A stretch of 64,000 nt of DNA from Carboxylicivirga sediminis (GTDB lineage: Bacteria; Bacteroidota; Bacteroidia; Bacteroidales; Marinilabiliaceae), in contig NZ_JAGTAR010000022.1 of the NCBI RefSeq assembly GCF_018156225.1, forward strand, positions 1 through 64,000, in the 5' to 3' direction. The stretch's first letter is position 1, and every line of letters begins with the position of its first letter. The position numbers and the translations under genes are program-made. This document shows, piece by piece, positions 5,001 to 23,024 of the stretch. The notes below the pieces were generated by a model. It did not search any database and was not told the DNA's origin. It saw nothing but the letters and a program-made list of their open reading frames with translations.

Positions 5001-5968
5001 GTCTTTTGAGCATAAATCGGCATATTATCAGGTCGCTTGGCAAAGGTGGCAGACAGGAAGCAAACGCCTTTGGTTTGCCTTAACACACCTTGCATAAATT
5101 CACCTGTATTGGAACTGCCTGAAGCATTATGAGCTTCGTCCATGATGATGATATTACCGTTACTTGCAGCATTTAAAAACTCTTGTTTGGCTGGCTTTTT
5201 CGGCTGATTGAACTGCGAATAAGTGGCACAAACAAAGTTGTAATTGTTGGGTACTTTCTTTCCCTTTATGATGCGCTCTTGTGTAGGTTTTTCGGGAGCA
5301 GTATATATGACTTCACCGCTTTTGTCCTTTACATTGGTTTTGCTCTCTTTGGTATTCACAATGAAAGGAACCAGGGCGGAACTTCCAATATCCGATAAAT
5401 CCCTATACAGGTCAGTAAATAGGTTGGGCTTTTCTGATAAAAACACAGGTTGCAAGCCACTTTTAACACCATAGCGGATTAAAGCTGCTGCGGTTCTTCC
5501 TTTACCGATTCCTGTTTGGTCGCCAACAATAATCCCCTGCCCACGCTTTTCGATATTGTAAATTGCCAATGATACCGCATCAATCTGTTCGCACGAAAGC
5601 GACTTGACAAGCTCGTCATTACTGTAATCGAGTTTCTCACAGGCATAATCAAACACAGGCATCCCGATACTTTTCTTTACTTTCCGGATAGCGATATGCA
5701 TTTCGTGACCCATTGAATCGGGAACAGTTGTATCTAGGATAAAACCCTTTTCGGCTGTGGGAATATATGCCATGCCCAGCCCTTTATGACCGAACATTCC
5801 TTGTAAATACTCATGCTCGTTCTGAGCCAGTTTTTTAGTGCGGACAAAGCACTTGTTATCCTTTGAAGAAAAGCCCAGTTCGATTAACCGAGAAACAATA
5901 TGTCCTTGTGGTTTTCGACTGAACTTTATGGTTAGGCTTTTTTTCTGGAATTTAATTTCGGACTTCAT
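2021..5968 (-). CDS. Strawberry-notch-type SF2 helicase
   Basis: 1315 residues. The Walker A GDQTGIGKGR at 149-158 has the GDxTGxGKGR form typical of strawberry-notch (SNO) helicases. A DEAH box follows (IIMDEAHNASG, near residue 275), and then SGSTGASAHA and QKRGRINRTGQ, corresponding to SNO C-terminal helicase motifs V-VI. Such proteins are common in polyvalent modules of phages and plasmids beside DNA methyltransferases and are thought to act on incoming DNA. The start overlaps the methyltransferase stop by 17 bp and its stop overlaps the next start (ATGA), so translation is probably coupled. Residues 1287-1298 are LRAKAILIKQKQ, identical to a segment in the same place in the upstream methyltransferase. 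Confidence 0.88.
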   Translation of the reverse strand: MKSEIKFQKKSLTIKFSRKPQGHIVSRLIELGFSSKDNKCFVRTKKLAQNEHEYLQGMFGHKGLGMAYIPTAEKGFILDTTVPDSMGHEMHIAIRKVKKSIGMPVFDYACEKLDYSNDELVKSLSCEQIDAVSLAIYNIEKRGQGIIVGDQTGIGKGRTAAALIRYGVKSGLQPVFLSEKPNLFTDLYRDLSDIGSSALVPFIVNTKESKTNVKDKSGEVIYTAPEKPTQERIIKGKKVPNNYNFVCATYSQFNQPKKPAKQEFLNAASNGNIIIMDEAHNASGSSNTGEFMQGVLRQTKGVCFLSATFAKRPDNMPIYAQKTSMSDANMSKEDLVEAITKGGVALQEVLAAQLVSEGQMIRRERSFEGVEVNYIELKEKAKEQAETADKVTSIIRDIIGFQEKYINKQVDELDKIAAAESKEVETRKGTEKAGVDNIPYFSKVFNVINQLLFSLNASDVADHAINRLKEGKKPIIAFASTMGSFLEGMAKPDDVINGDFSTVLEKGLDSVLRYTEKDIDGESQGKQFNIADLSEDAQLAYYDIIRRIEQASTGITISPLDLIIQKIKEAGYSVGEVTGRKLCVQYNSTKAKNTTALVMSRKKENTADLFRQFNDNEIDCLLINQSGSTGASAHAIVTDKVPVEKVKQRVMVILQPELNINTEIQKRGRINRTGQIMKPIYDYIISSIPAQKRFMMMLKKKLKSLDANTTSNQKSSKSQLESDDFLNKYGDKVVRQYMLENEELNKALDNPLKFEGKDSDETPSEGDASKVTGRVAVLSVKEQEKFYQEVIERYNDYIEYLKQADEYDLEVEILNLKAESLEKRVVIAGKGGRSVFGNDTYLKKCECNVLKKPYGKAELEKLIQKQLSNKHPDSISEEIVSAHEKFVQNKLSEDLKALDDKYKDLLDGITDEKGYQKIPVYEKQQRIQYITEREDEIVAAKGLDITKTQTQSENRKRYLNNFFKFFKVGHGYFYPAVSFETDSSDNSYCVFLGFDINPKRKNPYAPSSVKLRFAISDSRKYIILPASGDTAKEIERVMSRSMQLTTGQKESLIERWDEAIKDFTADRQIRYIVTGNILQGSADFPGKLVSFTTKGRGVQKGILMSEAWSPDNNDNKADNYVIAPIAKLQKHIMSLRNGATIATENRITIARHYDGTFKVIMPKTKTHIPIYTDRNVVKLLVNNRDGFEMVSGNMRASVEESKMPKLLNLLGERFSLSVKIPRHYYDEFLDKGTKRSNSTDSLTNEAMKMFEQDKKEFPKRLAKQKQSAPKGKKVSIDTGKQLKLVKLRAKAILIKQKQLRAVAGLGTHPKIKTIL

Positions 5969-7076
5969 GCTGTTTTTGTTTTATGAGAATTGCCTTTGCT
6001 CTTAACCAAGCGATGTTCTGATTGATTTTTTTCAGGGTACCTGGTGACGGTTGAGGTTGTACTCTGTCCCAAAGTTCGTCATGGGTATTGACAACACTGC
6101 TGTGCAGTTTATTTTTAAGTGGAGCTGCTCCTTCGGGAACTGCTTTTGCTCCATCAATCAGAATCAATCGGGTATTGATTGAAGTTCCTTGTCTGGAGTA
6201 AAGCTTTTTGCCGTTAATAGGGATAATATCTTCAACGTTGTAAAAGTGGTAGAGGTAATTCAGGAAAATGCGGTTAGTTCCTGCCGTAACCCGACCATGT
6301 TCGTCCCAAGTGGTATGACCACCAATGATAATGGCTGCCTTACCATCTTCCTTCATGCAACGCAAAGCGTTCAATGCCATTGCATGTTCCAATCGCTTGA
6401 TTTTAAATTTTCCAAAAAGTTCAGGTTGAGAAAGTGAACCGAAAGGCGGATTAGTAACTATACCATCAAAAGTTCTGTCATAAGCTGCCGGAGGTTTTAA
6501 GGCATCCCAAGAACTGACCTTTGCAAAAGGTTGTTCTTTCAGGTTGGCAAGCCTTACATCATCCAACTCGTTAACATGGGTATAGTGATAAGGCAAAGCA
6601 ATGGTTAAAAGTCCGTTCCCTGCCGATGGTTCTAAATACTTTGGAAAATCGTTTTTATCATTGGTAAGATGAGCATTGCCGACTATTTTACCCTTTGTAC
6701 TTCCTTTTACGATGTTCTTAAAAGCTTTGTAGCCTGATAAGCTACCCGGTTTTAAAATATAACTCGATGCCAGGAACGAAATGGGTGCCGGAGTCGAATA
6801 TTGCTGCATCAATACACTCATGCTTGTTCGCATGGATAGGTTGACCTGTGATTGATACAGGGCTACAATATCAAGGTATTTTTCGTAAGTGGTTAGCGAA
6901 CTGTCGTGTGCAATCTCTCTTGCGTTAAGAATTATTGCCAGTTCGGTAAATTCTTTCACCAAGTTTTTATTGGCGATACCGAAGCTTTTGGCAATGCTTT
7001 CAATAGTGGTTTTAGAGTGCTTACGTTCCGCCTTTAAATCCTCACGAATCCTTGATATGTAGCCCTTTTTATCCAT
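5952..7076 (-). CDS. N6-adenine DNA methyltransferase, polyvalent-module type
   Basis: 374 residues with an AdoMet-binding motif LEPSAGNGLL (148-157) and a catalytic NPPF (209-212, TNPPFGS), which defines an amino-methyltransferase acting on adenine N6. An N-terminal region of about 140 residues is predicted helical. No restriction endonuclease is adjacent, so self-protection of element DNA (anti-restriction) is more likely than a restriction-modification pair; that is inference. It lies 6 bp after the fibre gene and overlaps the helicase gene. The C-terminus (residues 357-368) carries LRAKAILIKQKQ, shared with the helicase. Confidence 0.85.
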   Translation of the reverse strand: MDKKGYISRIREDLKAERKHSKTTIESIAKSFGIANKNLVKEFTELAIILNAREIAHDSSLTTYEKYLDIVALYQSQVNLSMRTSMSVLMQQYSTPAPISFLASSYILKPGSLSGYKAFKNIVKGSTKGKIVGNAHLTNDKNDFPKYLEPSAGNGLLTIALPYHYTHVNELDDVRLANLKEQPFAKVSSWDALKPPAAYDRTFDGIVTNPPFGSLSQPELFGKFKIKRLEHAMALNALRCMKEDGKAAIIIGGHTTWDEHGRVTAGTNRIFLNYLYHFYNVEDIIPINGKKLYSRQGTSINTRLILIDGAKAVPEGAAPLKNKLHSSVVNTHDELWDRVQPQPSPGTLKKINQNIAWLRAKAILIKQKQHEVRN

Positions 7077-7082
7077 TATATA

Positions 7083-9584
7083 TTACTGAAGTACAATCGT
7101 TTTATCCGTTTCGTCTTTAAAAGTGAGTTTCAGGTTGTTCCCTGCGACATCAACAGCAAGACTATCCACATCTGCATCCACGAAGTTTTTCATGAAGTTG
7201 ATTTGGAAGTTTAAGATGTCTGCCAGTTTTGTTTCCCAATCTTCTCCTGAGAAGATTCCTGAATCTGCATATACCTGTAGGAACTTTTTTAGAAAGTCAG
7301 GGATATTATGCAAGTTGGTGTCCCAATCTGCCCCGACAGTTGCGTTTTCTTCAATGCCTGAAAGTTTGTCTTCTTCAACTTGTGGATAGCTTCTTTTTTG
7401 AGTATTGGCTTCAATAGCAACTGCTTGTTCAGGGGAAATAGTTACAGGTTTATTCTGGACATTCGACTCCCAATCTGCTCCAACAGTTGCATTTTCTTCA
7501 ATACCAGCCAGCTTATCTGCATCTACTTGTGGGTAACTTACCTTTTGGGTATTGGCTTCAATGGCTGCTGCTTGTTCAGGAGAAATAGTTACAGGTTTAT
7601 TCTGTACATTCATTTCCCAATCAGCTCCTACTGTGGCATTTTCTTCAATCCCTGCTAACTTATCAGCATCCACCTGTGGATAGCTATTCTTTTGGCTATT
7701 GCTTTCAATGGCTGCTGCCTGTTCAGGAGAAATAGTAACAGGTTTGTTTTGTACATTTGATCCCCAGTCTGCTCCAACAGTTGCATTCTCTTCAATTCCT
7801 GCCAACTTATCAGCATCAGCTTGAGGATAGCTTACTTTTTGTGCATTAGCTTCAATAGCCTCTGCTTGTTCAGGAGAAATAGTTACTGGCTTGTTCTGAA
7901 CATTTTGTTCCCAGTCAGCTCCAACAGTAGCGTTTTCTTCAATACCTGATAGCTTGTCTTCATCTTCTTGTGGGTAGCTACGCTTTTCAGTATTGCCTTC
8001 AATGGCTTCAGCTTGTTCAGGAGAAATGGTTACAGGTTTATTCTGCACATTTGATTCCCAATCTGCCCCAACAGTTGCATTTTCTTCAATGCCGGATAGT
8101 TTGTCTTCATCAGCTTGAGGATAGCTACGTTTTTCAGTATTAGCCTCTATTGCTTCTGCCTGTTCCGGCGAGATTGTTACGGGTTTGTTCTGTATATTTT
8201 GCTCCCAATCAGCTCCAACAGTAGCGTTTTCTTCAATTCCGGCAAGTTTATCAGCATCAGCTTGTGGATAGCTTCGTTTATTGTTGTTGGATTCAATATC
8301 GGCTGCTTGTTGTGGAGAAATGGTTACTGGTTTATTCTGCACATTTTGCTCCCAGTCAGCTCCAACAGTCGCATTGTCTTCGATACCCGATAGTTTGTCT
8401 TCATCGGTTTGAGGATAGCTTCGTTTTTGGTTATTCGCCTCAATTGCTTCTGCCTGTTCCTGGCTAATCGTTACAGGTTTATTTTCTACGTTGCTTTCCC
8501 AATCTGCCCCAACAGTAGCATTCTCTTCAATCCCTGCCAACTTCTCTGCATCCTCCTGCGGATAGCTACTTTTTTTGTTGTTGTTTTCAATGGCTGTAGC
8601 CTGTTCCGGAGAAATGGTATTGGGTTTGTTTTCCAATTCCTCAAAATTGGAGGTCAGGTTCATATCATTCTCCAATTGTGATAGCTTTGTTGGAATGGCG
8701 ATATTTAGATTGCCATCCGGGTCAGTAACAAATCCACCGTGTACCTCGATACCGCCATTGGGCATATACACCGGACTTTTCTCTGAAATCAACAAGTCTT
8801 CAACGTTCCCTGCGATTATCAGACCTCCTGAAATCTGCTGAACAATGGTTTTTGGTCTAAAGTCCGGAGCTGATTTTGAACGAGCGATATTAATGAATGA
8901 GCCAACCGAAGCCCTATCCAGAATCGTATCCTGAACATCACGGTTCATCTTGAAATAGGTATCAGAAAATACAATCTTGTTATAACCTCGGTCAAAAACA
9001 CAAGACTGGTTAACCTTAGCCTCAAAACAGCAATCGTCTATGTTGGTCGTGCTGTTCAGAAATGCCAATGCACCACTTCCTTCATCACTGTACTCAAATC
9101 GAATATCCCTAAAGTTGATGGCACTATTATAAATCTCAATAGCTTTGTCGCTCTGAAAAACAACAGGCTTCACGTAAGTACCGACTGTTCCATCTACCTT
9201 ATTGCTTAATGAACAGATGTTGATTTGATAGGAAAAATCACGAAGGACCAGGAATGTCCCTAAATCGTTAATGAAAGTACCATCTTCGAACATGATGCTG
9301 ATACTTGCATTCTCGTTGGTATGGTATTTCAATGCCTTGGGTAATGAATCAAATAAAAGCTGGAGCTTTGAAAACGGTGTTCCCGTTGGAATAATAATTG
9401 CTTTTTGGTCAAGGTCGTATTCAAATCCTGCAATCTGCTGGTCCTTACTCATATCAAACACGCCCTGAAATACCTTGTATTGTTCGTGTTCCATACCTAA
9501 ATAGGCATACTGACCATCAGAAGCCCATTCGCCTTTTTTCAGTAACGGTGGGGTTGTTCCCCTAAACATCTTGATTGTTCCCAT
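7083..9584 (-). CDS. Repeat-containing fibre/spike protein
   Basis: 833 residues. Residues 1 to about 315 are beta-rich with many short turns, as in parallel-beta fibre heads or lyase-like folds. Nine tandem 49-residue repeats follow, each with cores like TISPEQAEAIE, YPQxDxDKLxGIEENATVG and GADWExNVQNKP. DKLxGIExxAT repeats are known from phage tail-fibre shafts. The last ~80 residues form a distinct C-terminal cap. Repeats differ mostly at one variable triplet, so recent expansion or homogenisation is likely. Adsorption to host or recipient surface is the likely role. Position among small membrane and beta-rich proteins suggests it is a virion spike, though no tail genes are present. Confidence 0.8.
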   Translation of the reverse strand: MGTIKMFRGTTPPLLKKGEWASDGQYAYLGMEHEQYKVFQGVFDMSKDQQIAGFEYDLDQKAIIIPTGTPFSKLQLLFDSLPKALKYHTNENASISIMFEDGTFINDLGTFLVLRDFSYQINICSLSNKVDGTVGTYVKPVVFQSDKAIEIYNSAINFRDIRFEYSDEGSGALAFLNSTTNIDDCCFEAKVNQSCVFDRGYNKIVFSDTYFKMNRDVQDTILDRASVGSFINIARSKSAPDFRPKTIVQQISGGLIIAGNVEDLLISEKSPVYMPNGGIEVHGGFVTDPDGNLNIAIPTKLSQLENDMNLTSNFEELENKPNTISPEQATAIENNNKKSSYPQEDAEKLAGIEENATVGADWESNVENKPVTISQEQAEAIEANNQKRSYPQTDEDKLSGIEDNATVGADWEQNVQNKPVTISPQQAADIESNNNKRSYPQADADKLAGIEENATVGADWEQNIQNKPVTISPEQAEAIEANTEKRSYPQADEDKLSGIEENATVGADWESNVQNKPVTISPEQAEAIEGNTEKRSYPQEDEDKLSGIEENATVGADWEQNVQNKPVTISPEQAEAIEANAQKVSYPQADADKLAGIEENATVGADWGSNVQNKPVTISPEQAAAIESNSQKNSYPQVDADKLAGIEENATVGADWEMNVQNKPVTISPEQAAAIEANTQKVSYPQVDADKLAGIEENATVGADWESNVQNKPVTISPEQAVAIEANTQKRSYPQVEEDKLSGIEENATVGADWDTNLHNIPDFLKKFLQVYADSGIFSGEDWETKLADILNFQINFMKNFVDADVDSLAVDVAGNNLKLTFKDETDKTIVLQ
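7305..8627 (-). repeat. Nine in-frame 147-bp tandem repeats in the fibre gene
   Basis: The repeats are exactly 147 bp (49 codons) apart, as seen from the spacing of the GADW codons, and run from a Lys-Pro codon pair to the end of the ninth GADW segment. They are diverged at synonymous sites but highly conserved in protein, so they are maintained by selection rather than freshly duplicated. Confidence 0.9.
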
Positions 9585-9605
9585 ATTATGAAGTCTTTTA
9601 AATTT

Positions 9606-10217
9606 CTAAATCATTGAATAAGCCCTGTCGAACAGTTCATTACTGACGTAATTGCCACCATTCTCAACCCTGGCTATTGAAAGCACCAAAAGGCGAAGTG
9701 TATTCTTGGTAGGTAGAAGCTTAGCTGTTTTGCTAACTTTTAAATCCTTACAAACGGTTTTGATATAAGCTGCCGTATTGTTCTCAAACTTGGGCGCATA
9801 TTCCTCGATAAGAGCCGGAACTGTATTCTTGCCTTTTTCAATGTCATGCTTGAGGTCTTTAATCATGGCACGAACTCCGTAAACAGGAGCTTTAAACATT
9901 TCAAAACGTCTGTCTTTGTTTTGCTCTTTAGGAAGTTTACCATTCCATTTGATGTTGGTGTAAATCAGGTTTCCCGGATTGTTGTTGCGGATGCCCCTGG
10001 GTGCATTGGATAGATAAGTATTGCCACCATTCCAATTTTGAAAATCCGAAGGCAACTCATTCCTATTCGTAGTTAAAATGTTTGAACCACGATGGGGCAA
10101 TAGCCCTTGCTGTCTTTTCTTATTGCGTCTGCGAATAAGTAAAATGGTGGTCACTATCGCCCCTGTGGTTACTAACCCTCCCGAAATAAATAATATCTTC
10201 TTTTGTTTCTTGTCCAT
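9606..10217 (-). CDS. Membrane-anchored P5-type virion peptidoglycan hydrolase
   Basis: 203 residues. A hydrophobic helix at about 9-28 is followed by a basic stop (RRRNKKR), so the C-terminal part should sit on the other side of a membrane. Residues 74-84 are RGIRNNNPGNL, the signature of phage 'structural protein P5'-like lysozyme-fold proteins. The C-terminal region (YGVRAMIKDL, LIEEYAPKFENNTAAYIKTV) fits the same family. In the family such proteins are virion components that cut the cell wall at entry or exit. It lies 22 bp after its upstream neighbour and before the fibre gene. Together with other single-helix proteins nearby it suggests a virion with an internal membrane. Confidence 0.7.
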   Translation of the reverse strand: MDKKQKKILFISGGLVTTGAIVTTILLIRRRNKKRQQGLLPHRGSNILTTNRNELPSDFQNWNGGNTYLSNAPRGIRNNNPGNLIYTNIKWNGKLPKEQNKDRRFEMFKAPVYGVRAMIKDLKHDIEKGKNTVPALIEEYAPKFENNTAAYIKTVCKDLKVSKTAKLLPTKNTLRLLVLSIARVENGGNYVSNELFDRAYSMI

Positions 10218-10232
10218 AGCTGTAATCGTGTT

Positions 10233-10709
10233 TTAGAGAGGGATTCCCCAACTGTCGAACTTGGGTTTTATTTTGGCAATCTCTTTATCGCTTAGTTCAA
10301 AGCGTAACCAACCAATCAAATTGTAGTCCTGACCAAGAAATGCAGCACGAGTTCCCAATAGGTACATCTTCATACCGAAAGCTTTTATCACCAGAAGCAT
10401 ATCATCTTTGGTCTTTAGCTTATCTATGGTGCTGTAAATCGTTTTTTCGTCTGTTCCGAAATCAAGCATTGCACCGTACAGCGTATTAGCATACAAGGCT
10501 GCATCAGATGGGGAAATGGTCAAATTTTCCTTTTGAAGAACCATATCGCTCAATGCAGGAGCAACCCTTGATGAAGTGCCATCAGGATTACGCTTGAACA
10601 ATAGTTTTTTAACGGCATAAATACCTATGCCTACACCTAATATGGGTAAGCCGTATTTAATTCCATTAGCGACTAATGTTGCCTTATTTACTGGTGGTAA
10701 CTTTTGCAC
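10233..10709 (-). CDS. Small membrane protein of the virion-like block
   Basis: 158 residues from a GTG start (no in-frame ATG precedes the membrane helix). A glycine-rich hydrophobic helix lies at about 17-36 and ends in basic residues (KKLLFKR), followed by a soluble helical domain (DMVLQKENLTISPSDAALYA onward). No known family is recognised. The layout (short N-tail, one helix, basic edge, globular domain) repeats that of the downstream P5-type protein and the large protein at 15277. Probably co-transcribed and a membrane-associated virion or assembly component; the function is inferred from position only. Confidence 0.6.
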   Translation of the reverse strand: MQKLPPVNKATLVANGIKYGLPILGVGIGIYAVKKLLFKRNPDGTSSRVAPALSDMVLQKENLTISPSDAALYANTLYGAMLDFGTDEKTIYSTIDKLKTKDDMLLVIKAFGMKMYLLGTRAAFLGQDYNLIGWLRFELSDKEIAKIKPKFDSWGIPL

Positions 10710-10721
10710 GGTACTTGAATT

Positions 10722-10898
10722 TTAGATGTATCTCAATGCGGTCTTTACAATCTTTGGGTTCTTGGCTACTTTGGAGAGCAGCTTAATAATATCCTCCTGT
10801 TCAACCTTGTTTACCGCATTTTGTATCAGGTTTCCCATTTGCTGAACCGTCTCCGGTGCTTCAGCTTCAATCGTGATTCCTACTTTAAATTTTCGCAT
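10722..10898 (-). CDS. Small hypothetical protein
   Basis: 58 residues from the ATG at 10898 (MRKFKVGITIEAEAPE). A longer frame begins at 10931 but overlaps the upstream gene's end, so the internal start, just clear of that stop at 10918, is preferred. The sequence has a short beta-like start followed by amphipathic helices and a basic end. No family is recognised. It is tightly packed in the virion-like block. Confidence 0.5.
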   Translation of the reverse strand: MRKFKVGITIEAEAPETVQQMGNLIQNAVNKVEQEDIIKLLSKVAKNPKIVKTALRYI

Positions 10899-10917
10899 AA
10901 TCGTTTGTTTTAAATGT

Positions 10918-12006
10918 TTATTCTTCGCCATCCGTTTGCTCTATTCCTTGTAAAGTTTGGTTCAAGAATGCGAGAGTTTTATTGATGAGTTCCGCTTTGT
11001 CAAGGCATAGTCCAACAATGTTGGCAATCTTGGCCACATCTTGCAGTTCCCATGTCATTAGGGCATCAGAAAGGTTCTTGATAATCTCTGCTTTCTTCTT
11101 GTCTTCTGGAGAACTTGCCGAACCCATATCGGTAATCTCAACATTGGTATCTGGAATTGGAGCCGATTCTTCAGGGCTGTCATCGACCATACCCAAAGCA
11201 CCTTTTAGTTCCTCTGCTGTAAGTCCTAATAACTCTGCTGTTTTCGGACTGTTGGTAAGTATGCGTGAACCGATGCCTACCAATGCCCCTGTGGCTACTC
11301 TCTTCATTACCTCGTTGGGAGCATACCCGGCAAGACGGTTTTCTAGGTCAGTCTTCTCTGATTTTAATTCCCTATTCTCACTTTGGTAGCGGTCTTTCTC
11401 AGCTCGTAGTTCCGCATTTTCATTGCGTAATCGCTCAAACTTCTCTTCCAAAGTATTGTAGCGTGTCTCGAACTTAAAATCATCCAATTGCTTTTGGTAA
11501 CTGATTCGTTCAACCTCCTTGTTGTTACCCGACAAGGCATTGAACACGCCAAACAAACCTTCCAATTTGTTTTTTGCCTGTTCGTTTTCACCTGAGAACA
11601 ACCCCAATAGCGTATCCAATTCTCCTAAACCATTGGTATTATTCTGAATCTGCTGCTGTTTAACTTCTTGTTGAATAATGGTTTGAAGTTCTGCTCTCTC
11701 AATAGGTTCTTTTGGTGGATTGAGAAGTTTGCTCACATTGATGGTATAGCTGTTCAGGCTTCTTGCATTGGGGCTTTTACCGCCAAACACATCAACCCTG
11801 AGTGTACCATGTGATTGTTTTGCTTTTTCAATGGCACTTTCAATATCACGGTTGAACTTTTCAGTTCCGGCAGTTCTCGAAGTGAGTGCCGTTTCATCAA
11901 CTCCTGTTACCAGGTATATTTCGTATGCGTAAGGGTACTTTTGTTCATCCTCTGAACGTTTTATAAACTCGTATATGCTTTGTATTTGCTCTCTGTAATC
12001 TAGCAT
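10918..12006 (-). CDS. Coiled-coil protein with GLGEL motif
   Basis: 362 residues. An N-terminal alpha/beta domain (1-100) contains a YAYEIYLVTG strand. Residues 125-130 are NGLGEL, one of several GELG-type motifs in this block. A long heptad-rich coiled coil (about 165-225, many Glu/Arg/Asn) is followed by a glycine/alanine-rich hydrophobic stretch (VATGALVGIGSRIL) and an acidic linker. No enzyme motif is visible. It could be a scaffolding, tape-like or membrane-linking structural protein. The next gene upstream ends 7 bp before this start. Confidence 0.55.
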   Translation of the reverse strand: MLDYREQIQSIYEFIKRSEDEQKYPYAYEIYLVTGVDETALTSRTAGTEKFNRDIESAIEKAKQSHGTLRVDVFGGKSPNARSLNSYTINVSKLLNPPKEPIERAELQTIIQQEVKQQQIQNNTNGLGELDTLLGLFSGENEQAKNKLEGLFGVFNALSGNNKEVERISYQKQLDDFKFETRYNTLEEKFERLRNENAELRAEKDRYQSENRELKSEKTDLENRLAGYAPNEVMKRVATGALVGIGSRILTNSPKTAELLGLTAEELKGALGMVDDSPEESAPIPDTNVEITDMGSASSPEDKKKAEIIKNLSDALMTWELQDVAKIANIVGLCLDKAELINKTLAFLNQTLQGIEQTDGEE

Positions 12007-12013
12007 GGCTGTA

Positions 12014-12364
12014 TTAATTTCGGTGGGGAATAATCTTTACAAACTCCAATCGGTAAGGCTTGAAGCTTTCCGCCTGGGTTTTGATGTCTATGTAATCGGT
12101 GAATACCTGGTAGCGGTACTCATCCATAAAGTCATATTCTTCGGGTGTAGCAGTAAACACGTTATCGCTACTAATCATTTCCAATTCATCTATGGAACCG
12201 GGAAGACCTTTAGTGTTTAGAATCCACATGTCGTTTTTCAGGTCCAGGGACATATCAGAACTTGTAACTCGAATCACAGTCGGTTTCAACTGGTAACTGT
12301 CAATGGTTCGTAGTCCTGCAATGCGGTCTTTGGCAATGGTATGTAATAACTCACTCGTGTTCAT
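12014..12364 (-). CDS. Hypothetical protein of the virion-like block
   Basis: 116 residues, no membrane helix and no known motif. It has a short helical start, then alternating hydrophobic strands (TVIRVTSSD, NDMWILNTKG, PYRLEFVKII), which suggests a small beta-rich or alpha/beta fold. It overlaps the end of the upstream gene by 14 bp and lies 7 bp before the coiled-coil gene, consistent with coupled translation. Function unknown. Confidence 0.5.
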   Translation of the reverse strand: MNTSELLHTIAKDRIAGLRTIDSYQLKPTVIRVTSSDMSLDLKNDMWILNTKGLPGSIDELEMISSDNVFTATPEEYDFMDEYRYQVFTDYIDIKTQAESFKPYRLEFVKIIPHRN

Positions 12365-13187
12365 TGGTCACTTCCTCCGGATTTGTGTTCGACAATTGCA
12401 GTTCTTTTTTGGATGGAGCTTCGTACTCAATGTAAATCCTGATGGTCAGGATATTTTCCTCGCTGTTCTTGTTGCTCTTGAATACCGTGTAGATGTTGCT
12501 GTTCACCTCCAAAGGCTCATGGAAAGGGATAATCTCTTTGCTGAGATACTTGATGTTTCTGTTTGCCGTAACCATGTAGTCACGAAGCAAGAAGCTGTTA
12601 CCGTTTACCAATAAACTGATGTTGCCACACTCGTATGATTCAGGCTGCTTGTAAGCTTTAATGGTTCTTTTGAATAGTTCATCCTTGTGCTGATAGGTAA
12701 ATACCAATGTTTGTTGGGCGATAAAATCAGAGAACTCAAGGTTGGTCATTCCCTGACCTCTAACAAACAGATTGGATTCGTTATAAACGAAATCAACGAA
12801 CTGCTCATTGAATACATGAGCAATATGGTCGCTCAATTCCTGTTGCTCATCTTTATCCAGGCACGAATAAACAATACCATTGGTTAGTACCTTGATAATT
12901 TCAGGTAAAATGTCCCTTTCAAAGAATGCACGACTATCATGTTCATCTGCTCTTGTGCGTAAATAGGAGTAGAATAAGTCTGTAATCTGCTCATCGTTTA
13001 ACAGGTCAGTAATCAATGCTTGTGGGAAAGCAAGGCTCTCCACTACATCAATCAACTCTGTTTGCTTTTTAACGGTGGCGATAACAGCAAGACCAGTTAT
13101 CAACTTGCAGGAAGCAGGGAGCAAATCCTGTGCGTTGATATGGCTATTGTCCTCGGACTTATGCGTAATAACAAAATATCGTTTCAT
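12351..13187 (-). CDS. Candidate virion protein with beta-rich C-terminus
   Basis: 278 residues. The first ~170 are helical with acidic patches. The last ~100 are beta-rich: NISLLVNGNSFLLRDY, then KYLSKEIIPFHEPL, SNIYTVFKS, and a final strand LTIRIYIEYEA. This order of strands, with an 'IIP' loop in the middle and a long final strand, resembles the C-terminal halves of the proteins at 13206 and 13673, so all three may share a jelly-roll-like fold. That is a visual comparison, not a search result. It lies 18 bp after its upstream neighbour. Confidence 0.5.
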   Translation of the reverse strand: MKRYFVITHKSEDNSHINAQDLLPASCKLITGLAVIATVKKQTELIDVVESLAFPQALITDLLNDEQITDLFYSYLRTRADEHDSRAFFERDILPEIIKVLTNGIVYSCLDKDEQQELSDHIAHVFNEQFVDFVYNESNLFVRGQGMTNLEFSDFIAQQTLVFTYQHKDELFKRTIKAYKQPESYECGNISLLVNGNSFLLRDYMVTANRNIKYLSKEIIPFHEPLEVNSNIYTVFKSNKNSEENILTIRIYIEYEAPSKKELQLSNTNPEEVTNEHE

Positions 13188-13205
13188 ATCGGGAGTATTG
13201 GGGAA

Positions 13206-13592
13206 TTATGAATTATCCACTTCGGCAAGCAGATACACACGCACATGGTAACTATCATTAACAGCCAGGTTCTCGCTATCATCCTTATAGATAATTCTGA
13301 TAGGGCTGTTTTTGGCTTTTTCATTCACAGGGAAAGTCACGTCTTTGATACTCATATCATCATTGTGATGAAGAAGAGCTACCTCGGTATCATCGGGGAT
13401 GATTTCAGTATCATCAATCCATGCTCGAAGTGTTGAACCCGGTAGGGCTTGTTGATTAGACAGGCGGAGGAACATACCCTTAATGCGGTCATGCTCTGTT
13501 TTGGTATTGCCGTTAAACTCGAAGGTTTCTCCTTTTTTAACCTCGAATTTTACAACCTGTAGTTTCTTTATTTTATTGTCTTGTACTTCCAT
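13206..13592 (-). CDS. Small beta-rich candidate capsid or minor capsid protein
   Basis: 128 residues and almost entirely predicted beta: VVKFEVKKGETFEF, RIKGMFLRLS, STLRAWIDDTEIIPDDTEV, SPIRIIYKDDS and YHVRVYLLAEV. Length and strand number fit a single jelly roll, and 'IDDTEIIPDD' resembles the loop seen after a strand in such folds. Possibly a capsid, penton or minor jelly-roll component of a non-tailed virion. No sequence family is recognised, so this rests on strand pattern and position between two other beta-rich proteins. Confidence 0.5.
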   Translation of the reverse strand: MEVQDNKIKKLQVVKFEVKKGETFEFNGNTKTEHDRIKGMFLRLSNQQALPGSTLRAWIDDTEIIPDDTEVALLHHNDDMSIKDVTFPVNEKAKNSPIRIIYKDDSENLAVNDSYHVRVYLLAEVDNS

Positions 13593-13672
13593 TGGTATAA
13601 GTGATTAAGAAAAAAGGGACGGAAGCAAGTATTGCGACCGCCCCTTCTAACGATTATGGCATACCCAAAAAA

Positions 13673-14518
13673 CTAGGCTTTCTCAGTGATTGTACCCAAT
13701 AAGGTTATTTTAACAGCTGGGTTGAAAACCTTGTCGCTGTTGTTGATAGCCTTTGGCATGTTCAGCTTTGGCGTGATGTCCATTGATGGCTTTAACCACT
13801 TTGGATTAGCCAATTTGTACTGGAACTTACGCTTGGTTGTATCGGTATCATCGAATACCGCACATGAGATTTCAGGAAGAATCACCTTGGTTCCCAAAGT
13901 CATCTCAAATGTTCCGTTAAGGATTTGTGCAGGAAGCGCAAACTGACCGAATGCAAAATCTGCAGGGTCATTATCTTCTTCCGATGCACCGTGAGCGTAC
14001 TCAAGAACAATGTCAGTTAGTAAGAAATATTTTCCTGAATCCAACTGTGCACGGTTCAGGTTAGTACGACCAGCCTTCTTATCATCCGATGCTTCCATCA
14101 AATCAATATCGGACTTGTCCTTAACTGACTTAATGGTATAGATTGCCGTATCAACGGTCTGCATACGTGCATCTTTCAATGCCTTTTGAATCTCTGCCGG
14201 AAGCTGCTGTCTACGTAATTCAAACTGACCTTTTGAAGTCAGTTGAGTTGTCAAACCTGTTTTTACAGCGGTACTTCTGCGACCTGCATTGTACGACCTG
14301 CGAACAGCACGTTTGCGGTAACTACGTCTGCGACCTCTACGGCTTCTGCGTCTTCTTCTACGTCTCGAACGTCCGAGTTCACCGATGCCTTCCGTGGCAT
14401 CATCCTGGTCGTCTTCTTTGTCCAGGGAATCTTCTTCCTTATCGAGAATCGCTTCTTCTAAACCCTCTATATCCTCCATTGAGGGGTACAAATCATTTTG
14501 CTCATTAATCTCTGCCAT
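13673..14518 (-). CDS. Acidic-propeptide/Arg-rich protein, candidate major capsid or core protein
   Basis: 281 residues in three parts. Residues 1-43 are very acidic (DKEEDSLDKEDDQDD). GIGELG (44-49) follows, then a strikingly arginine-rich tract at 50-81. Residues about 90-281 are beta-rich, with strands such as KYFLLTDIVLEYAH, GTFEMTLGTKVILPE and PAVKITLLGTI. The arrangement looks like a precursor in which an acidic segment neutralises a nucleic-acid-binding arm until it is removed at GELG. A capsid protein with an internal basic arm fits best; a nucleoprotein is the alternative. It is flanked by intergenic gaps of about 80 bp on its downstream side and 65 bp on its upstream side, longer than most gaps in the block. 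Confidence 0.55.
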   Translation of the reverse strand: MAEINEQNDLYPSMEDIEGLEEAILDKEEDSLDKEDDQDDATEGIGELGRSRRRRRRRSRRGRRRSYRKRAVRRSYNAGRRSTAVKTGLTTQLTSKGQFELRRQQLPAEIQKALKDARMQTVDTAIYTIKSVKDKSDIDLMEASDDKKAGRTNLNRAQLDSGKYFLLTDIVLEYAHGASEEDNDPADFAFGQFALPAQILNGTFEMTLGTKVILPEISCAVFDDTDTTKRKFQYKLANPKWLKPSMDITPKLNMPKAINNSDKVFNPAVKITLLGTITEKA

Positions 14519-14583
14519 GATAATTTGTTTTTGTGGCTCAATAGCCTGTTATAAATTGAATTGATTACTTAGTTGTGAATGAA

Positions 14584-15243
14584 TCAGGATGCCATCATAT
14601 CGCCCGAAAAGATGTCATAGTCCATGCTGTCGGGGTCGATGTCTTTAATCTTGCCGATTTGAGGTTCTTCATCCTCCGGATAGTCTGTTTTGCCGATAGG
14701 TTCATCGCTCATTGCATAATCGGCTGCTGCACTTCCCACAGGGTCGTCACTCATGGAGTAATCTGCTGCTGCACCTGAAACAGAAGCTTCTATTTCACGC
14801 TCGATGTCGATATCCGCTGCCGGAAGAGCTTGTGTGATTGGATTCAAGGCTTGTAAACCATCAACTTCATCGTAGTCTTCGTCTCCAATGATGCCCTCTA
14901 ATCCTTGTAGGATGGTTTTACCTGTTGCTTTCTTGATAATGGATTCTACACCAGCTCCTGCTGCTCCAACAAGCCCAAGCTTGATGTATTCATTTTTGGT
15001 AAATTGAGTACCTACCAAACTGCCCATTGTAACCGCTGCCGGAACGATGTAGCTTTTCATGTCATTGCCTAGAAGACCACTTACAGCCTGACTTTTCTCT
15101 AACTTCTTTAAAGCGTACTTTCCAACTGCAAACCCTGCTACGGCAGCAATGGGCTTGCCTATGTTGTTGGTGGCTTTCATAAAGTCAATTTTTGTCCCGG
15201 CGGATGTTCTCCTGGGGCTTGACGTTGTTTTCTTAACTGCCAT
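14584..15243 (-). CDS. Gly/Ala-rich membrane-associated protein with acidic tail
   Basis: 219 residues. A basic N-terminus (VKKTTSSPRR) is followed by three Gly/Ala-rich hydrophobic stretches (IAAVAGFAVGKYAL, YIVPAAVTMGSLVG, LGLVGAAGAGVESI), then an acidic tail from about residue 125 with two near-repeats of ADYxMSDxPxG. A short GLEGIIGDED segment marks the transition. This basic-hydrophobic-acidic layout resembles small membrane-linked virion proteins. No family is recognised. It is the second gene of the block, 33 bp after the large multidomain gene. Confidence 0.5.
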   Translation of the reverse strand: MAVKKTTSSPRRTSAGTKIDFMKATNNIGKPIAAVAGFAVGKYALKKLEKSQAVSGLLGNDMKSYIVPAAVTMGSLVGTQFTKNEYIKLGLVGAAGAGVESIIKKATGKTILQGLEGIIGDEDYDEVDGLQALNPITQALPAADIDIEREIEASVSGAAADYSMSDDPVGSAAADYAMSDEPIGKTDYPEDEEPQIGKIKDIDPDSMDYDIFSGDMMAS

Positions 15244-15276
15244 GTTCTTAATTTTTAATAATTGTTTATCTATTGA

Positions 15277-17832
15277 TTATTGAAGCTCAATGCTTCCTAA
15301 TGCCTTTTTTGAGAAGGATTTCTTTGACTGTGTGTTTTGCTTCGGTTTGTCATCATCTTTCTTGCGAAATGCGAAGTATGCACCTGTACCAATCAATGCC
15401 ACTACGCCAATACCGATACCTATTTTTGCTCCCTTACTCATGCCTTTTTTTGTTGGAGCAACTGTTTGTGTAATCATTGGAGCCAGCGATGTAGTTTGAG
15501 GGCTGTAGTTGCCCGACTTCATTATTGGTTGGGGGGTATAACTGCTGGTCTGCGGAGCTACATAATGACTTGCTTCCTGAACCTGAGTATCTGAATTTGA
15601 TGGCACATACTGTGATACCGTATTTTTGACTTTTTTAGCCTTAGAAAACTTGCTCTTGATTTTTGTGAAGATGTTTTTTACAGGTTTTAGCCAACTTTTA
15701 ATTTTTGCCAATACACCTGTAGCTGCACCTACCGATGCTGCGGTAGCCACTGCACCCATTTGTCCTAATTCGCCAAGTTCTCCGATGGCTTCCAATCCTT
15801 GCAAATCAGCCAATAAACCATCTACGCCCTTCAATGAGAAGTCTCGGCTCTTTTGTTTTGCTCCTTTTAAGATTGCTTTTCTCAGGTTCTTTTCCCTGCC
15901 TTGCAATCCTTTAAATAGCTTACGTACACGTCTGTGGCGTTTCTTTAAGTCCTTTAGTTTTTTAGCATCGATGTTGTATTTGGATGCCAATTGGTCAGGT
16001 AGATAAGCGTATTGAAGTTTCTTGGCAATGCCGAACATATTCAATCGCAAAGCTGCCAATAAGCCATTACGGATAGCAATGGAAAGTGGATTAAAACGAA
16101 CGATGGCTTTAGCTACTTTCTTGGCGACTTTGCCAACTTTTTTAGCAGCCTTCTTAATGCCCTTACCAATCTTTCTGCCGATTCGCTTTAGTGATTTAAA
16201 AAATCCACCTAAACCTCTGTCTCCGTTTAATCCATCTATGGATTCATCTAAATCATCTAATTCTGCTAATCCTTCAATGGCATCTATATCGTACTTTATC
16301 AGTCCTTTTTGTGCAAGTCTGGCTTCAATACTTTCCAGTTTCGCCAGTACTTTATCTCGCTGTGGTGTATTCCAAAATTTGATAGCCTGGTCCAACATGG
16401 AAATAAATTGGTCAGGGTTTTGGATATGCGCCATTTTATCCTTGTTCTCCTTATTCTTTAAAAGGAAATTTCGGGTGCGGACTAAATAGCGGTAAGTGGC
16501 ATCGTCTGCATCACCCAATCCGTTAATGGCATCGTCAAAGTCAACGCCAGATACTATAGCGATAAGTTCTTCATGGTCGGCTTTTGCTTGATGACCTCCA
16601 GCCAAATCAATACCTGATAGAATTGAAATTGGTAAGCCTAAAGAACTTGAACCTGTTAAACCATCAATGCCTTTAAGTCCAGCCATCTGAACAGGTGACA
16701 TATCAAAGTTGGATTGCTCAAAGCTGTATGGCTTCTGATAATCGAATTTTGATAGTACCGGGTCAATGACTATCTCATCTTCCGAATCACCCAAAGCAGG
16801 AACAATAACATAGATATGCTGAAAGTTCTTTTTACCGTCATACTTGGTAATGCGGAGCTTGAACGGAATACCAAGGTTCTTTAAAAGAGAACCTACAAAA
16901 ATGCTGTAATCATCACAGTCAATCCCTGCTGATTTTATGCCTTTTTGTTTAAACCTCATTTGTCCGTCCAACCATGAACGTGCGGGAGTACGAAGCTGCT
17001 CTGTACCGTCTTCGTCTTTATGATATTGGAGATACTTGTATGAAAAATCAAAGATGTTCTTACAGGATGCTTTCATGTTATCACCTTGCAACATGGAGGC
17101 TAGTTCCTCTACTTCACGGAAGTGTTCGGCTATAATTTCAATACAACTTTCAACGGTTTCCAGGACATTGCCGTTCTTTACAAATACATCTGTTCCGGAT
17201 GCTTTTTTTATCAGGTGGTTGAACTTACGACCGTCCTGTGTATTACGTGGGCCAGACACGATGCCTAATTCGCCCAATGCTAATCCGTTCATATTTTGCC
17301 TCATTGTGGTATTATTTTCAATGGTATTCAGCGAACCCAACCTAGCGGTATGGCTTTCGTCTGTTAAATTTTGCGTGGTAGTAATGGTTTCGCCATTAAT
17401 GCTTAGCGAAAGGGTAAAGCTCATGTCTGCTTTAAGCTGTGCGGTGTTTTGAAGCAATGCTGTGGATAAACCTTTTCCTACAAGGTTCAGGTATGGCACT
17501 TGAAACAGGATTTCAGGCTCTTGTGTAGAACCTGCTCCAACAGTAAGACCTTTGATGTCGGGGGTAGAATAAGCAATTGCCGAACCTTTATAGTTTGCCA
17601 CTACCTGGTTAACGGCTAATGTGATGGGTGCTTTTGTGGGATTGTAGCAGCGAAGCTTTACAGCAAATTGAACTTCCTGTAAGTTCATCTTGTGGATGCG
17701 GAATCCCAAAAGGGCAAAGTTCATTTTTGCCCCGGCTAGAAGCTTTTTGCCCTTTTTAATGAGGTAGAAACCTCCACCAACGGCTGCAACTGCTGCTAAT
17801 GTGCCTAGTATTTTCTTTGTGCTTGCTTCCAT
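15277..17832 (-). CDS. Multidomain protein: LEA14-like, transglutaminase-fold peptidase, basic amphipathic segment
   Basis: 851 residues from the ATG at 17832; an in-frame ATG at 17847 is possible but lies inside a TATGTTTG promoter-like element. It has an N-terminal membrane helix (about 9-26), a LEA14/WHy-like beta domain (30-165) and GLALGELG (184-190). A transglutaminase-like cysteine peptidase domain follows, with C306 (AGIDCDDYSI), H339 (NFQHIYVIV) and D357 (IVIDPVL) as the expected triad. Then come an acidic stretch, a very basic amphipathic region (FFKSLKRIGRKIGKGIKKA), a conserved-looking RNGLLAALRLNMFGIAKKL, another IGELGELG and a C-terminal membrane helix. It is the first gene of the block. 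It may be a structural polyprotein or maturation peptidase; the role is inference. Confidence 0.65.
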   Translation of the reverse strand: MEASTKKILGTLAAVAAVGGGFYLIKKGKKLLAGAKMNFALLGFRIHKMNLQEVQFAVKLRCYNPTKAPITLAVNQVVANYKGSAIAYSTPDIKGLTVGAGSTQEPEILFQVPYLNLVGKGLSTALLQNTAQLKADMSFTLSLSINGETITTTQNLTDESHTARLGSLNTIENNTTMRQNMNGLALGELGIVSGPRNTQDGRKFNHLIKKASGTDVFVKNGNVLETVESCIEIIAEHFREVEELASMLQGDNMKASCKNIFDFSYKYLQYHKDEDGTEQLRTPARSWLDGQMRFKQKGIKSAGIDCDDYSIFVGSLLKNLGIPFKLRITKYDGKKNFQHIYVIVPALGDSEDEIVIDPVLSKFDYQKPYSFEQSNFDMSPVQMAGLKGIDGLTGSSSLGLPISILSGIDLAGGHQAKADHEELIAIVSGVDFDDAINGLGDADDATYRYLVRTRNFLLKNKENKDKMAHIQNPDQFISMLDQAIKFWNTPQRDKVLAKLESIEARLAQKGLIKYDIDAIEGLAELDDLDESIDGLNGDRGLGGFFKSLKRIGRKIGKGIKKAAKKVGKVAKKVAKAIVRFNPLSIAIRNGLLAALRLNMFGIAKKLQYAYLPDQLASKYNIDAKKLKDLKKRHRRVRKLFKGLQGREKNLRKAILKGAKQKSRDFSLKGVDGLLADLQGLEAIGELGELGQMGAVATAASVGAATGVLAKIKSWLKPVKNIFTKIKSKFSKAKKVKNTVSQYVPSNSDTQVQEASHYVAPQTSSYTPQPIMKSGNYSPQTTSLAPMITQTVAPTKKGMSKGAKIGIGIGVVALIGTGAYFAFRKKDDDKPKQNTQSKKSFSKKALGSIELQ

Positions 17833-17840
17833 AATGGAAA

Positions 17841-17899
17841 CAAACATATAGTAGGCTTATGGTGGGGGTGTTGGAGATTAATTGTACCTGTAGGAGATT
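17841..17899 (-). promoter_or_regulatory. Candidate promoter/operator of the virion-like block
   Basis: On the minus strand TATGTTTG (17848-17841) matches the Bacteroidota TAnnTTTG element just before the 17832 start. Upstream, GGAGATT (plus strand) occurs at 17873-17879 and 17893-17899, exactly 20 bp apart, two helical turns, as expected of a dimer operator. No clear -33 TTG is seen, so the promoter call is weak. Confidence 0.35.
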
Positions 17900-18155: not shown

Positions 18156-18623
18156 TCACAACACTTCCAAAACTGATTTAAATATATCAGTTACATCTTT
18201 GGCAGAGGTAGCCAATTGATCATTATTAAATTCCTCCATAAATGCATTGGGATTAATAAAAACCACCTCAATAGTATTGAAATCTATTTCCTTTATAAGC
18301 ACTTTGCATGGGATAAAAACCCCAATATTCTCTTCCTCTAGGATGTTCTGATAAGCTATTGATGCATTACATGTTCCCAAAATTCTATAAGGTTTCATAA
18401 CAACATCATCTTGGTTATTCATTATTCTCGTATGTAAATCAAGCTCTGTAACCACACTGAATCCACTCTCCTCAAGTAACCTAGTAACCTGCTTTGTAAC
18501 CTCTTCAAAATTCCCTCTAGTTATTTTGTTAATAAAATAGTTCTTTTTCTTGTCATATCGTTCACAAGAAATAGTCAAAACAAATAATATAACAATTGCG
18601 CTTATTTTAATAAAATACTTCAT
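18156..18623 (-). CDS. DUF302-family lipoprotein
   Basis: 155 residues. A lipobox-like LTISC at the end of the signal segment (around residue 20) predicts a lipoprotein. The rest is a DUF302 domain: PYRILGTCNASIAYQNIL followed by IGVFIPCKVLI, the two blocks conserved in the family, including two cysteines. DUF302 proteins occur in metal and sulfur stress loci but have no firmly known reaction. A paralogue without the lipobox lies at 26894, and both copies follow a Met/His-rich lipoprotein gene, which points to duplication of a two-gene unit. Confidence 0.75.
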   Translation of the reverse strand: MKYFIKISAIVILFVLTISCERYDKKKNYFINKITRGNFEEVTKQVTRLLEESGFSVVTELDLHTRIMNNQDDVVMKPYRILGTCNASIAYQNILEEENIGVFIPCKVLIKEIDFNTIEVVFINPNAFMEEFNNDQLATSAKDVTDIFKSVLEVL

Positions 18624-18888
18624 TACATCAATCTTTTTAAAAATACAACTTTAATGAATCAACCAAAGGAAAATTAATCCTTCTTAAAAGCTCAAGTATT
18701 GAAGACTTGGAAATTTGTTGGCTACCATATTCAAGAAAAATGCTTTGTTCATCCAAACAGAGACTTATAATCCCAGAACTATTTTTATTGCTTTGCAGAT
18801 TTCTTTTAATTTTTATTTGCTGATTGCATTTAAAGTCTTAGAGGTTTTAATAATGTATGACTCATTTTTTATGCTCATAACTATAGAA

Positions 18889-19458: not shown

Positions 19459-19507
19459 TTTTTCTTACTTTAAATTATCAATTACTCATTTATTTGTTTT
19501 GTATGTG

Positions 19508-19535
19508 TACCGTAAAAGGGCAATTTTACCCTACC
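19508..19535 (-). promoter_or_regulatory. Predicted ECF-sigma promoter, copy 1
   Basis: On the minus strand GGTAGGGTAAAATTGCC is followed by a short spacer and TTACGGTA. 25 of 28 positions match the element before the ECF sigma gene at 23627-23654. The shared parts have the size and spacing of -35 and -10 boxes, and the lipoprotein start is about 50 bp downstream. Confidence 0.75.
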
Positions 19536-23014: not shown

Positions 23015-23024
23015 TGTTTCAACT

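Follow-up and report, generated by a model that had tools for sequence, protein, structure and literature searches.

The window analysed here, a 64,000-nucleotide stretch of Carboxylicivirga sediminis DNA (bases 1-64000 of the 110,510-base contig G000:C48), carries a block of genes that we consider likely to be the virion and first-strike part of a provirus, the integrated form of a temperate, tail-less double-stranded DNA (dsDNA) virus of Bacteroidota. The block runs leftwards from 17.85 kb with all genes co-directed on the minus strand, covers 2.0-17.9 kb and continues to the window edge, where it is the assembly, and not the window, that truncates the left flank. An earlier sequence-only reading had set the limits of the block at 5952-17847. 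The open reading frames (ORFs) it named were found where it had placed them, on the minus strand, including the RGIRNNNPGN motif in the 203 amino acid (aa) ORF at 9606-10217, but the block goes on to the left through a helicase and an LPD1 protein. Its proposal of a tail-less virus is supported by a predicted capsid fold and by the finding of no terminase or portal in the scanned proteins of a tRNA-bounded sibling copy, G005:C1. Other copies of the element are likewise labelled as genome:contig (e.g. G000:C47, G005:C1, G009:C38, G011:C18, G013:C1 and G036:C22).

The 281-aa protein encoded at 13673-14518 is predicted to be a single jelly-roll capsid protein. No Pfam or PHROG family was found for it at a usable level. 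Its AlphaFold2 model, made from an alignment of 25 sequences sharing 30-97 % identity with the window's protein, has a mean pLDDT of 77 and consists of a helical acidic and Arg-rich N-terminal arm followed by one eight-strand barrel (residues 119-280). The top match in VIA-align is the capsid protein of Sulfolobus polyhedral virus 1 (SPV1; 6oj0_A; Z 9.3, root-mean-square deviation 3.5 A, 150 of 178 residues), with the next match scoring 8.2. The runners-up are the capsid proteins of PBCV-1 and EhV-201 (Z ~8), followed at Z 6.4-7.5 by those of Faustovirus, SGIV, HCIV-1, HHIV-2, PRD1, SH1 and P23-77; flagellar caps align with the N-terminal helices of the model only. When Foldseek was run against the PDB, SPV1 (E 3.2e-5) was the sole match at E<=0.001 among 1131 at E<=10. 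In BFVD, 77 matches reached E<=0.001, and the 50 listed include capsid proteins of nucleocytoplasmic large DNA viruses and circoviruses, and also plant movement proteins. The structure comparison that the sequence-only reading had proposed for this protein thus yielded a predicted jelly-roll. For the neighbouring 128-aa protein (p128) the same check was less informative, as the model is an eight-strand sandwich (pLDDT 72) but its matches are non-specific. The best is a peptidylglycine monooxygenase (Z 8.3), then come enterovirus, complement, furin and others, and no SPV1 or P23-77 chain is among the best 50 matches listed. It was therefore not accepted as a proven second jelly-roll capsid protein. 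The genes of the block, all on the minus strand, are as follows.

3..2024, minus: LPD1-type polyvalent protein with a HEWGH peptidase-like motif (HExxH type), open at the contig end.
2021..5968, minus: Strawberry-notch-type helicase, 1315 aa (Pfam AAA_34 3e-23 and Helicase_C_4 3e-23), with the tail RAKAILIKQKQ near the C-terminus.
5952..7076, minus: N6-type DNA methyltransferase of 374 aa, with the helicase's tail at its C-terminal end (Pfam weak, below cut-off; PHROG 14770, 1e-11).
7083..9584, minus: fibre-like protein with nine tandem repeats of ~49 aa each, seen in the translation and as self-overlapping nucleotide matches every ~147 bp.
9606..10217, minus: virion-type hydrolase, 203 aa, with RGIRNNNPGN and an N-terminal membrane helix (PHROG 873 'endolysin', E 8e-36).
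10233..10709, minus: p158, conserved structural-block protein, 158 aa, recurring in siblings and divergent loci.
10722..10931, minus: small ORF, 69 aa; siblings have 57-60-aa ORFs at the same place.
10918..12006, minus: cc362, coiled-coil protein, from scans and recurrence in siblings and divergent loci.
12014..12364, minus: p116, conserved small protein, from alignment.
12351..13187, minus: p278, variable structural-block protein, from sibling comparison.
13206..13592, minus: p128, predicted eight-strand beta sandwich, candidate second or penton capsid protein.
13673..14518, minus: candidate major capsid protein, 281 aa, with an acidic and Arg-rich N-terminal arm and then a single jelly-roll.
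14584..15243, minus: p219, conserved Gly/Ala-rich protein, recurrent and possibly membrane-associated.
15277..17847, minus: p856, with a membrane helix close to each end and a Cys-His-Asp domain of transglutaminase/papain-like type (labelled by eye), homologous to the structural protein gp34 of Salisaeta icosahedral phage 1 (SSIP-1).

The 3..2024 gene shares 69.6 % nucleotide identity with its counterpart in a G013 copy, and a sibling member of this protein family matches Pfam LPD1 at E 9e-21. The nine 49-aa repeats of the fibre-like ORF are near-identical, and the size of the protein among elements ranges from 267 aa (plasmid pPP10) to 859 aa (G011:C18). The 203-aa hydrolase has matches in 765 phage records; among 20 listed, several are annotated as endolysin or structural protein P5. 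Membrane helices were called by a hydropathy scan (window 19, cut-off 1.6), which found one in the 203-aa protein, two in the 856-aa protein and none in the 158-aa or 219-aa protein. The two single-helix membrane proteins of the sequence-only reading are thus confirmed only in part.

No terminase, portal, sheath or tube was found in the block by Pfam (13 proteins) or PHROG (12 of these, the fibre left out), as the sequence-only reading had stated. The ten particle-like proteins have no Pfam family at cut-off, and their only PHROG rows at E<=0.003, beyond PHROG 873 for the hydrolase, are coiled-coil matches of the 362-aa protein. Several apparent matches were set aside. The tape measure, head protein and tail injection transglycosylase PHROG rows of the 203-aa ORF arise from its hydrolase domain aligning to the inner part of larger profiles, and the head-scaffolding rows of the coiled-coil protein reach only E 0.1-0.17. 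LEA_2 in p856 (Pfam E 0.15) and Circo_capsid on the Arg-rich arm of the 281-aa protein (Pfam E 0.049) fell below the cut-off and were not used. Proteolytic processing was also not adopted. A G[LI]GxL-type motif is common in the N-terminal part of the capsid protein (42 in 71 sequences, dependent through kinship) and in cc362 (48 in 61), but is absent in p128, p278 and p116, and is suggestive only.

The scans were extended to the bounded element G005:C1, whose proteins were scanned directly or were represented by relatives in other copies (for two Mza proteins the scan was by PADLOC alone, and several small ORFs were left out). Neither in the window block nor among the scanned proteins of this copy did Pfam or PHROG find an HK97-fold capsid protein, a terminase or a portal, and no relaxase, type IV secretion system (T4SS) or coupling protein is among the latter. 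Ten further G005:C1 proteins gave methyltransferase, nuclease, AIPR, trypsin-like or RteC matches, or nothing. Terminase or portal genes left of the window, or a conjugation (Tra) locus, had been named beforehand as findings that would speak against a virus, and neither was seen in the scanned proteins of this sibling.

Support also comes from SSIP-1, for which 31 of the 57 proteins were compared (gp57 only in part). In hmmsearch, profiles built blind to SSIP-1 match gp40 (ATPase, 5e-17), gp31 (endolysin, 4e-16), gp34 (p856, 1.4e-8) and gp13 (integrase, 1e-5). This is a cleaner test than hhalign, where the profiles had been iterated with SSIP-1 proteins in the pool and their rows removed before alignment. 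Comparison of 18 families (endolysin and integrase not among them) with the 31 SSIP-1 proteins by hhalign gave 98 % for gp34, 98 % for gp40 and 94.5 % for gp43, and nothing else above 14 %. All three are annotated as structural in the SSIP-1 record, gp40 also as ATPase and gp43 also as methyltransferase; gp40 is a predicted packaging ATPase according to the accessible part of PMC4124505. In p856 the transglutaminase-like Cys (68/68), His (69/69) and Asp (68/68) are invariant, in an alignment where 56-57 of 125 rows are gapped and many rows are close relatives. SSIP-1 gp34 aligns with the Cys and His, and the alignment stops before the Asp. Kinship of the coat protein with gp45/gp46 was considered and dropped, as there is no sequence signal. 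A scan of viral contigs for relatives of gp46 gave a single locus, which is 100 % identical, lies on a contig of 43,788 bases and evidently represents SSIP-1. One BFVD match of the coat model, I1ZBH9, has the length of gp46 (211 aa), though its identity with gp46 is unconfirmed.

A single-sequence search detected the coat gene in 7 of 14 genomes of the genus and 16 of 71 of the family. With a profile search the tallies were 21 of 393 for the order sample, spread over 20 of 207 genera, and 3 of 395 for a phylum-wide sample; this genome is counted each time. There are up to four copies per genome. A further 33 loci in database genomes overlap those of the sampled genomes, and of three matching IMG/VR viral-contig records at least one repeats one of the 33. 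Hosts include Carboxylicivirga, Plebeiobacterium, Saccharicrinis, Marinilabilia, Gaoshiqia, Persicobacter and rumen Bacteroidales. No description of this element family was found in a literature search covering few subscription journals.

Twenty further loci from 19 distant genomes were read; among the 20 other order-sample genomes with matches, 17 were fetched here, G054 was read separately and G139 and G417 were left out. These loci were chosen for the coat gene, so its presence is by construction, and some are cut by contig ends. A p856-family gene lies upstream of the coat gene in 20 of 20 and a p128-family gene downstream in 19 of 20 (the exception is G506b), and p219, cc362 and p158 recur in many. 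The gene order of the block recurs in pPP10, and a smaller core in divergent loci. Between the window and four siblings, the ratio of nonsynonymous to synonymous substitution (dN/dS) is ~0-0.17 in 12 block genes, many synonymous distances being saturated; judged from these alignments, the block genes are under purifying selection. Because the gene order recurs and dN/dS is this low, we exclude chance as the source of the block. Block DNA is 91-94 % identical between the window and the G005 copy, while chromosomal DNA to the right of the element shares 67-75 % identity with G005. The element is found with little change in different genera, and high DNA identity of this kind across species and genera suggests recent horizontal transfer.

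A second copy, ~80 % identical, is on G000:C47, and four are present in G013, a genome of one contig. Two modules are common to the well-mapped copies of the Carboxylicivirga group (the window, C47, three in G013, G005:C1 and G011:C18), namely the structural block and a replication module with a DnaG-type primase-helicase and flanking ORFs (46.2-52.9 kb in the window). The cargo between them differs from copy to copy. The remaining features of the window are the following.

18156..43506, no strand assigned: variable cargo bay, here with metal/copper-type genes recognised by eye from translations.
43776..44844, minus: small conserved ORFs bordering the structural module (r77; a J-domain-like HPDK motif was recognised by eye in one).
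46527..49748, minus: DnaG-type primase fused to a helicase-like region, by homology (in a sibling copy, Pfam DNAG_N 4e-33 and Toprim_2 7e-21).
50048..52677, minus: replication-end ORFs, including a conserved 327-aa ORF.

Since the structural block and the replication module are found together in copy after copy, separated by cargo that varies, the metal cargo and the replication module are assigned to the same element as the block, a possibility that the sequence-only reading had raised. Relatives of several of the metal-type genes are in one G013 copy. The cargo of siblings includes anti-phage defence genes, of the type I restriction-modification, Lamassu LmuB, TmtA or Mza kind (nine of the ten proteins scanned, which came from three elements, had matches), and the G005:C1 copy has an AIPR abortive-infection protein. 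The primase of the replication module was not shown by pPP10 or the Marinilabilia locus.

In G005:C1 and G009:C38 the element adjoins tRNA-Ser(TGA), and the integrase lies on the side of the tRNA. A 14-bp repeat of the tRNA end, identical at the two ends of the element, delimits 47,587 bp (G005:C1) and 41,811 bp (G009:C38, located via the G005 motif). Repeats judged unconvincing were those of G013 element 1 (12 bp), element 2 (a 22-bp AT-rich repeat) and element 3 (cassette-like repeats plus 13 bp), and a 43-bp repeat near both contig ends of G011:C18, which lies outside the integrase. None was found in the 5.26-Mb copy of G013, and none at 12 bp in G036:C22. Around the third element of G013:C1 (L045 and L047; joined positions 141570-141700 and 192189-193331), arrays of small ORFs contain recurring repeats, as long as 72 bp, with a cassette-like look. 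In the copy at 5.24-5.32 Mb of G013:C1 no DNA matches the C-terminal part of the fibre, the methyltransferase or the helicase, and the capsid and replication genes are kept; this is perhaps a decaying or rearranged provirus. A relative of the element in Persicobacter psychrovividus is on the circular 53,207-bp plasmid pPP10, with replication and ParA/ParB genes; an extrachromosomal circular form therefore exists.

The right end of the window copy is probably between 52.88 and 53.17 kb, as inferred. Adjacent, at 53172-53444, is a repeat of ~270 bp with inverted ends (CCTGAGTTCGA...TCGAACTCAGG), probably of the miniature inverted-repeat transposable element (MITE) type. It occurs many times across the genomes of the genus, often at contig ends, and a query holding it has matches in 13 of 14 genus genomes, many of them through the repeat.

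Genes beyond the contig end were read in siblings. The order past the LPD1 gene is a Lys-rich protein (p296, 281-309 aa), an ATPase (182-210 aa), a coiled-coil protein, a holin-like protein and an endolysin, and past the endolysin lies either the element end or extra cargo. The coiled-coil protein, of 110-114 aa with one hydrophobic stretch, is found after the ATPase in most copies. The holin-like protein (136-142 aa) matches PHROG 3427 holin at 1.4e-4, and the neighbouring endolysin has GH108 and PG_binding_3 domains. The p296 protein (L040:5925-6812 and orthologues) has a long Lys/Ala/Thr-rich stretch like histone H1 tails and is conserved beside the ATPase; it is a candidate DNA-condensing virion protein.

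An integrase and an FtsK/HerA packaging ATPase had been expected to lie left of the window. Sibling copies do encode a tyrosine recombinase (integrase) and an ATPase, but by Pfam the latter is not FtsK/HerA-like, and no ATPase of that type was found among the scanned element proteins. It has a P-loop, weak Pfam Torsin and AAA_14 rows and a match to PHROG 6891 'ATPase', and is the only ATPase seen outside the replication module and cargo. Its family also occurs in tailed phages and is therefore no packaging marker. A role as packaging enzyme was dropped, since the tailed-phage relatives, together with what we take to be RadA/Sak4-like motifs in this ATPase, make recombination equally likely.

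Three to four unrelated early-phase enzymes have nearly the same C-terminal peptide, RAKAI-x-IKQKQ. They are the Strawberry-notch helicase, N6 methyltransferase and LPD1 protein, joined in some elements by a 221-229-aa protein that is a C5 methyltransferase in the three scanned. A profile of this tail matches 59 of 1950 ORFs, with several loci held under two ids so that the counts are dependent. The matches comprise 34 methyltransferase, 10 helicase and 4 LPD1 ORFs and 11 without assignment, and the tail is C-terminal in 17/34, 10/10, 4/4 and 8/11, respectively. The 8 are the 221-229-aa proteins; the other 3 are two ORFs following a methyltransferase and one cargo ORF (E 0.27). In the remaining methyltransferases the tail is inside a longer ORF. 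The Marinilabilia locus (G036) has another tail, ALELEMEM-x-FEF, common to its helicase and LPD1 protein.

Within elements, helicase/methyltransferase/LPD1 tail pairs score 47-80 and the best other pair 38-44 (homologous pairs and visible cargo duplicates excluded), and 21 of 60,000 random tail pairs scored >=47. This null is not clean because the eight best pairs printed are mostly orthologues without assignment and one pair is the tail itself. C47 has no C-terminal tail pair above 38 because its methyltransferase has the tail inside. Elsewhere these enzymes are fused, as in PHROG 14770 (3427 positions), which spans methyltransferase and helicase. The tail possibly replaces fusion and addresses each enzyme to the particle.

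From the genes and the predicted fold we infer a particle, which by analogy probably contains a membrane, as well as packaging and the delivery tail. On induction the element would excise and replicate with its own primase-helicase. An icosahedral shell would be built from the 281-aa single jelly-roll protein, with p128 as second or penton protein. It would enclose a lipid layer in which p856, the P5-like hydrolase and further small proteins sit, and the DNA could be condensed by the Arg-rich arm of the coat protein and the Lys-rich p296. The methyltransferases, Strawberry-notch helicase and LPD1 protein may be loaded via their shared tail, enter the next host with the DNA and blunt restriction. 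Release would be through the holin-like and GH108 proteins, and between inductions the cargo would shield the host.

Several points weigh against a tail-less provirus. The virus particle is a prediction from genes and a modelled fold. The coat assignment depends on a model made with 25 sequences, the Z of 9.3 is modest (the tool warns that top Z values of 7-8 often arise where no clear match exists), an unrelated peptidylglycine monooxygenase is mixed among the matches at Z 6.4-6.7, and Foldseek gives low TM-scores to SPV1 (0.33 and 0.48). The structural matches of p128 are non-specific, and the coat protein has no tblastn match in 50,697 phage records (single-sequence search). The capsid proteins lack sequence similarity to SSIP-1 gp45/gp46 (hhalign <2 % for the major capsid protein and p128), the methyltransferase match to gp43 was weak before iteration (E 0.015), and endolysin and integrase families like these are common in phages generally. 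The ATPase family is shared with tailed Bacteroides phages. Of the 8 copies or loci searched for integration repeats, 2 gave convincing ones, and the ends and integrase of the window copy itself are not seen. Finally, members can exist as plasmids, as pPP10 illustrates, and the 5.26-Mb copy of G013 is without the left part of the block.

These last observations would fit a domesticated or plasmid-like derivative of an ancient tail-less virus, the particles of which are now gene-transfer or micro-compartment-like vehicles for host cargo and yield no infectious virus. The ParA/ParB and replication proteins of the circular plasmid, the large variable cargo, the presence of up to four copies in a genome and the copy lacking part of the block all speak for it. 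We nevertheless regard this as unlikely, given the endolysin and holin-like genes, an integrase with tRNA repeats, the dN/dS of ~0-0.17 in the tested genes, and the DNA identity across species and genera that suggests recent transfer. An integrative conjugative element, with the block as a surface or conjugation-related structure, is very improbable: the G005 copy has an RteC-like regulator, and polyvalent proteins with these domains also occur in such elements (in the accessible text of PMC5512222), but the bounded element has no relaxase, T4SS or coupling protein among its scanned proteins, and has an endolysin and a predicted jelly-roll protein. Equally improbable is a satellite or defective prophage that borrows terminase and capsid from a tailed helper, since a capsid-like protein is encoded in the element itself, 42-48 kb is a large size for a satellite and no HK97-type or tail gene was found in the block, whatever the Strawberry-notch homologue of the portal-bearing Bacteroides phage BS-TP4 and the ATPase relatives in tailed Bacteroides phages may suggest.

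The tail-less provirus is retained as the likely reading, a virus lineage filed in no known family and with a plausible claim to being a new high-rank lineage. The statement in the sequence-only reading that the block matches no known viral order stands in part, as the nearest match to the predicted coat fold is in Portogloboviridae, and the unclassified SSIP-1 has resemblances to some of the other genes. More tentatively, and with less confidence than we would need to favour it, this may be a deep-branching, widespread lineage that keeps an SPV1-like pre-duplication capsid state, maybe without a classical packaging motor, and loads enzymes via one interchangeable C-terminal peptide.

In the accessible part of PMC6356626, tail-less phages with single jelly-roll coats are represented by few isolates, and those named are from extreme environments. 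The element would place such a lineage in marine and gut Bacteroidota, where it is hard to spot with virus libraries and carries defence and metal islands. SPV1 has been placed at the base of the jelly-roll virus branch and has no packaging ATPase (PMC8812541, in the portion available), and the lineage could serve for testing how jelly-roll virus lineages arose. If true, the shared tail is a simple address for putting proteins into a virion, an injected protein kit made by tagging and not by giant fusion.

Among known systems, SSIP-1 is unclassified and tail-less, with an internal membrane and a circular genome of 43.8 kb; the element is similar in size (42-48 kb), and its particle is a predicted one. 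They share an integrase, an endolysin of the same family, the transglutaminase-like domain of gp34 (in p856) and gp40- and gp43-like proteins. The element differs in its host group, in the lack of detectable sequence similarity for the capsid proteins, p128, p116 and p278, and in having three or four separate tailed proteins where the polyvalent functions of SSIP-1 include one 2319-aa protein (gp43). As the capsid proteins share no sequence similarity, the element is described as working like an SSIP-1-type temperate tail-less phage and is not filed as a member.

SPV1 (Portogloboviridae) is the best structural match of the predicted coat protein. It has circular dsDNA of 20 kb, a lipid layer, single jelly-roll capsid proteins and an archaeal host, and is presumably non-lytic (PMC8459092). 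The single jelly-roll of its hexamer protein, VP4, is found here in a predicted model only (Z 9.3, E 3.2e-5, TM 0.33/0.48). Unlike the Portogloboviridae, with ~20-kb circular dsDNA in Sulfolobales, the element is 41.8-47.6 kb in Bacteroidota and has lysis genes and an integrase, whereas the SPV1 text mentions no integrase (PMC8459092). The single jelly-roll capsid proteins of the Sphaerolipoviridae/P23-77-like group (SH1, HHIV-2, HCIV-1 and P23-77) also match the coat model (Z 6.4-6.9). Those viruses have two major capsid proteins, according to the accessible parts of PMC5332951 and PMC6356626; here the second is only a candidate, p128, and no FtsK/HerA-type ATPase was found by Pfam.

Polyvalent proteins of phages and conjugative elements couple a Strawberry-notch helicase to an adenine methyltransferase and an HExxH peptidase (PMC5512222, as far as its text was available). 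The element shares such domains, and LPD1 (Pfam), but has them split into polypeptides joined only by the common C-terminal tail, an arrangement not described in that part of PMC5512222. BS-TP4, in which a portal is annotated, has a Strawberry-notch relative (L114:10454-13948, 32 % identity) inside a 16-kb ORF, which suggests that tailed and tail-less phages have swapped polyvalent modules.

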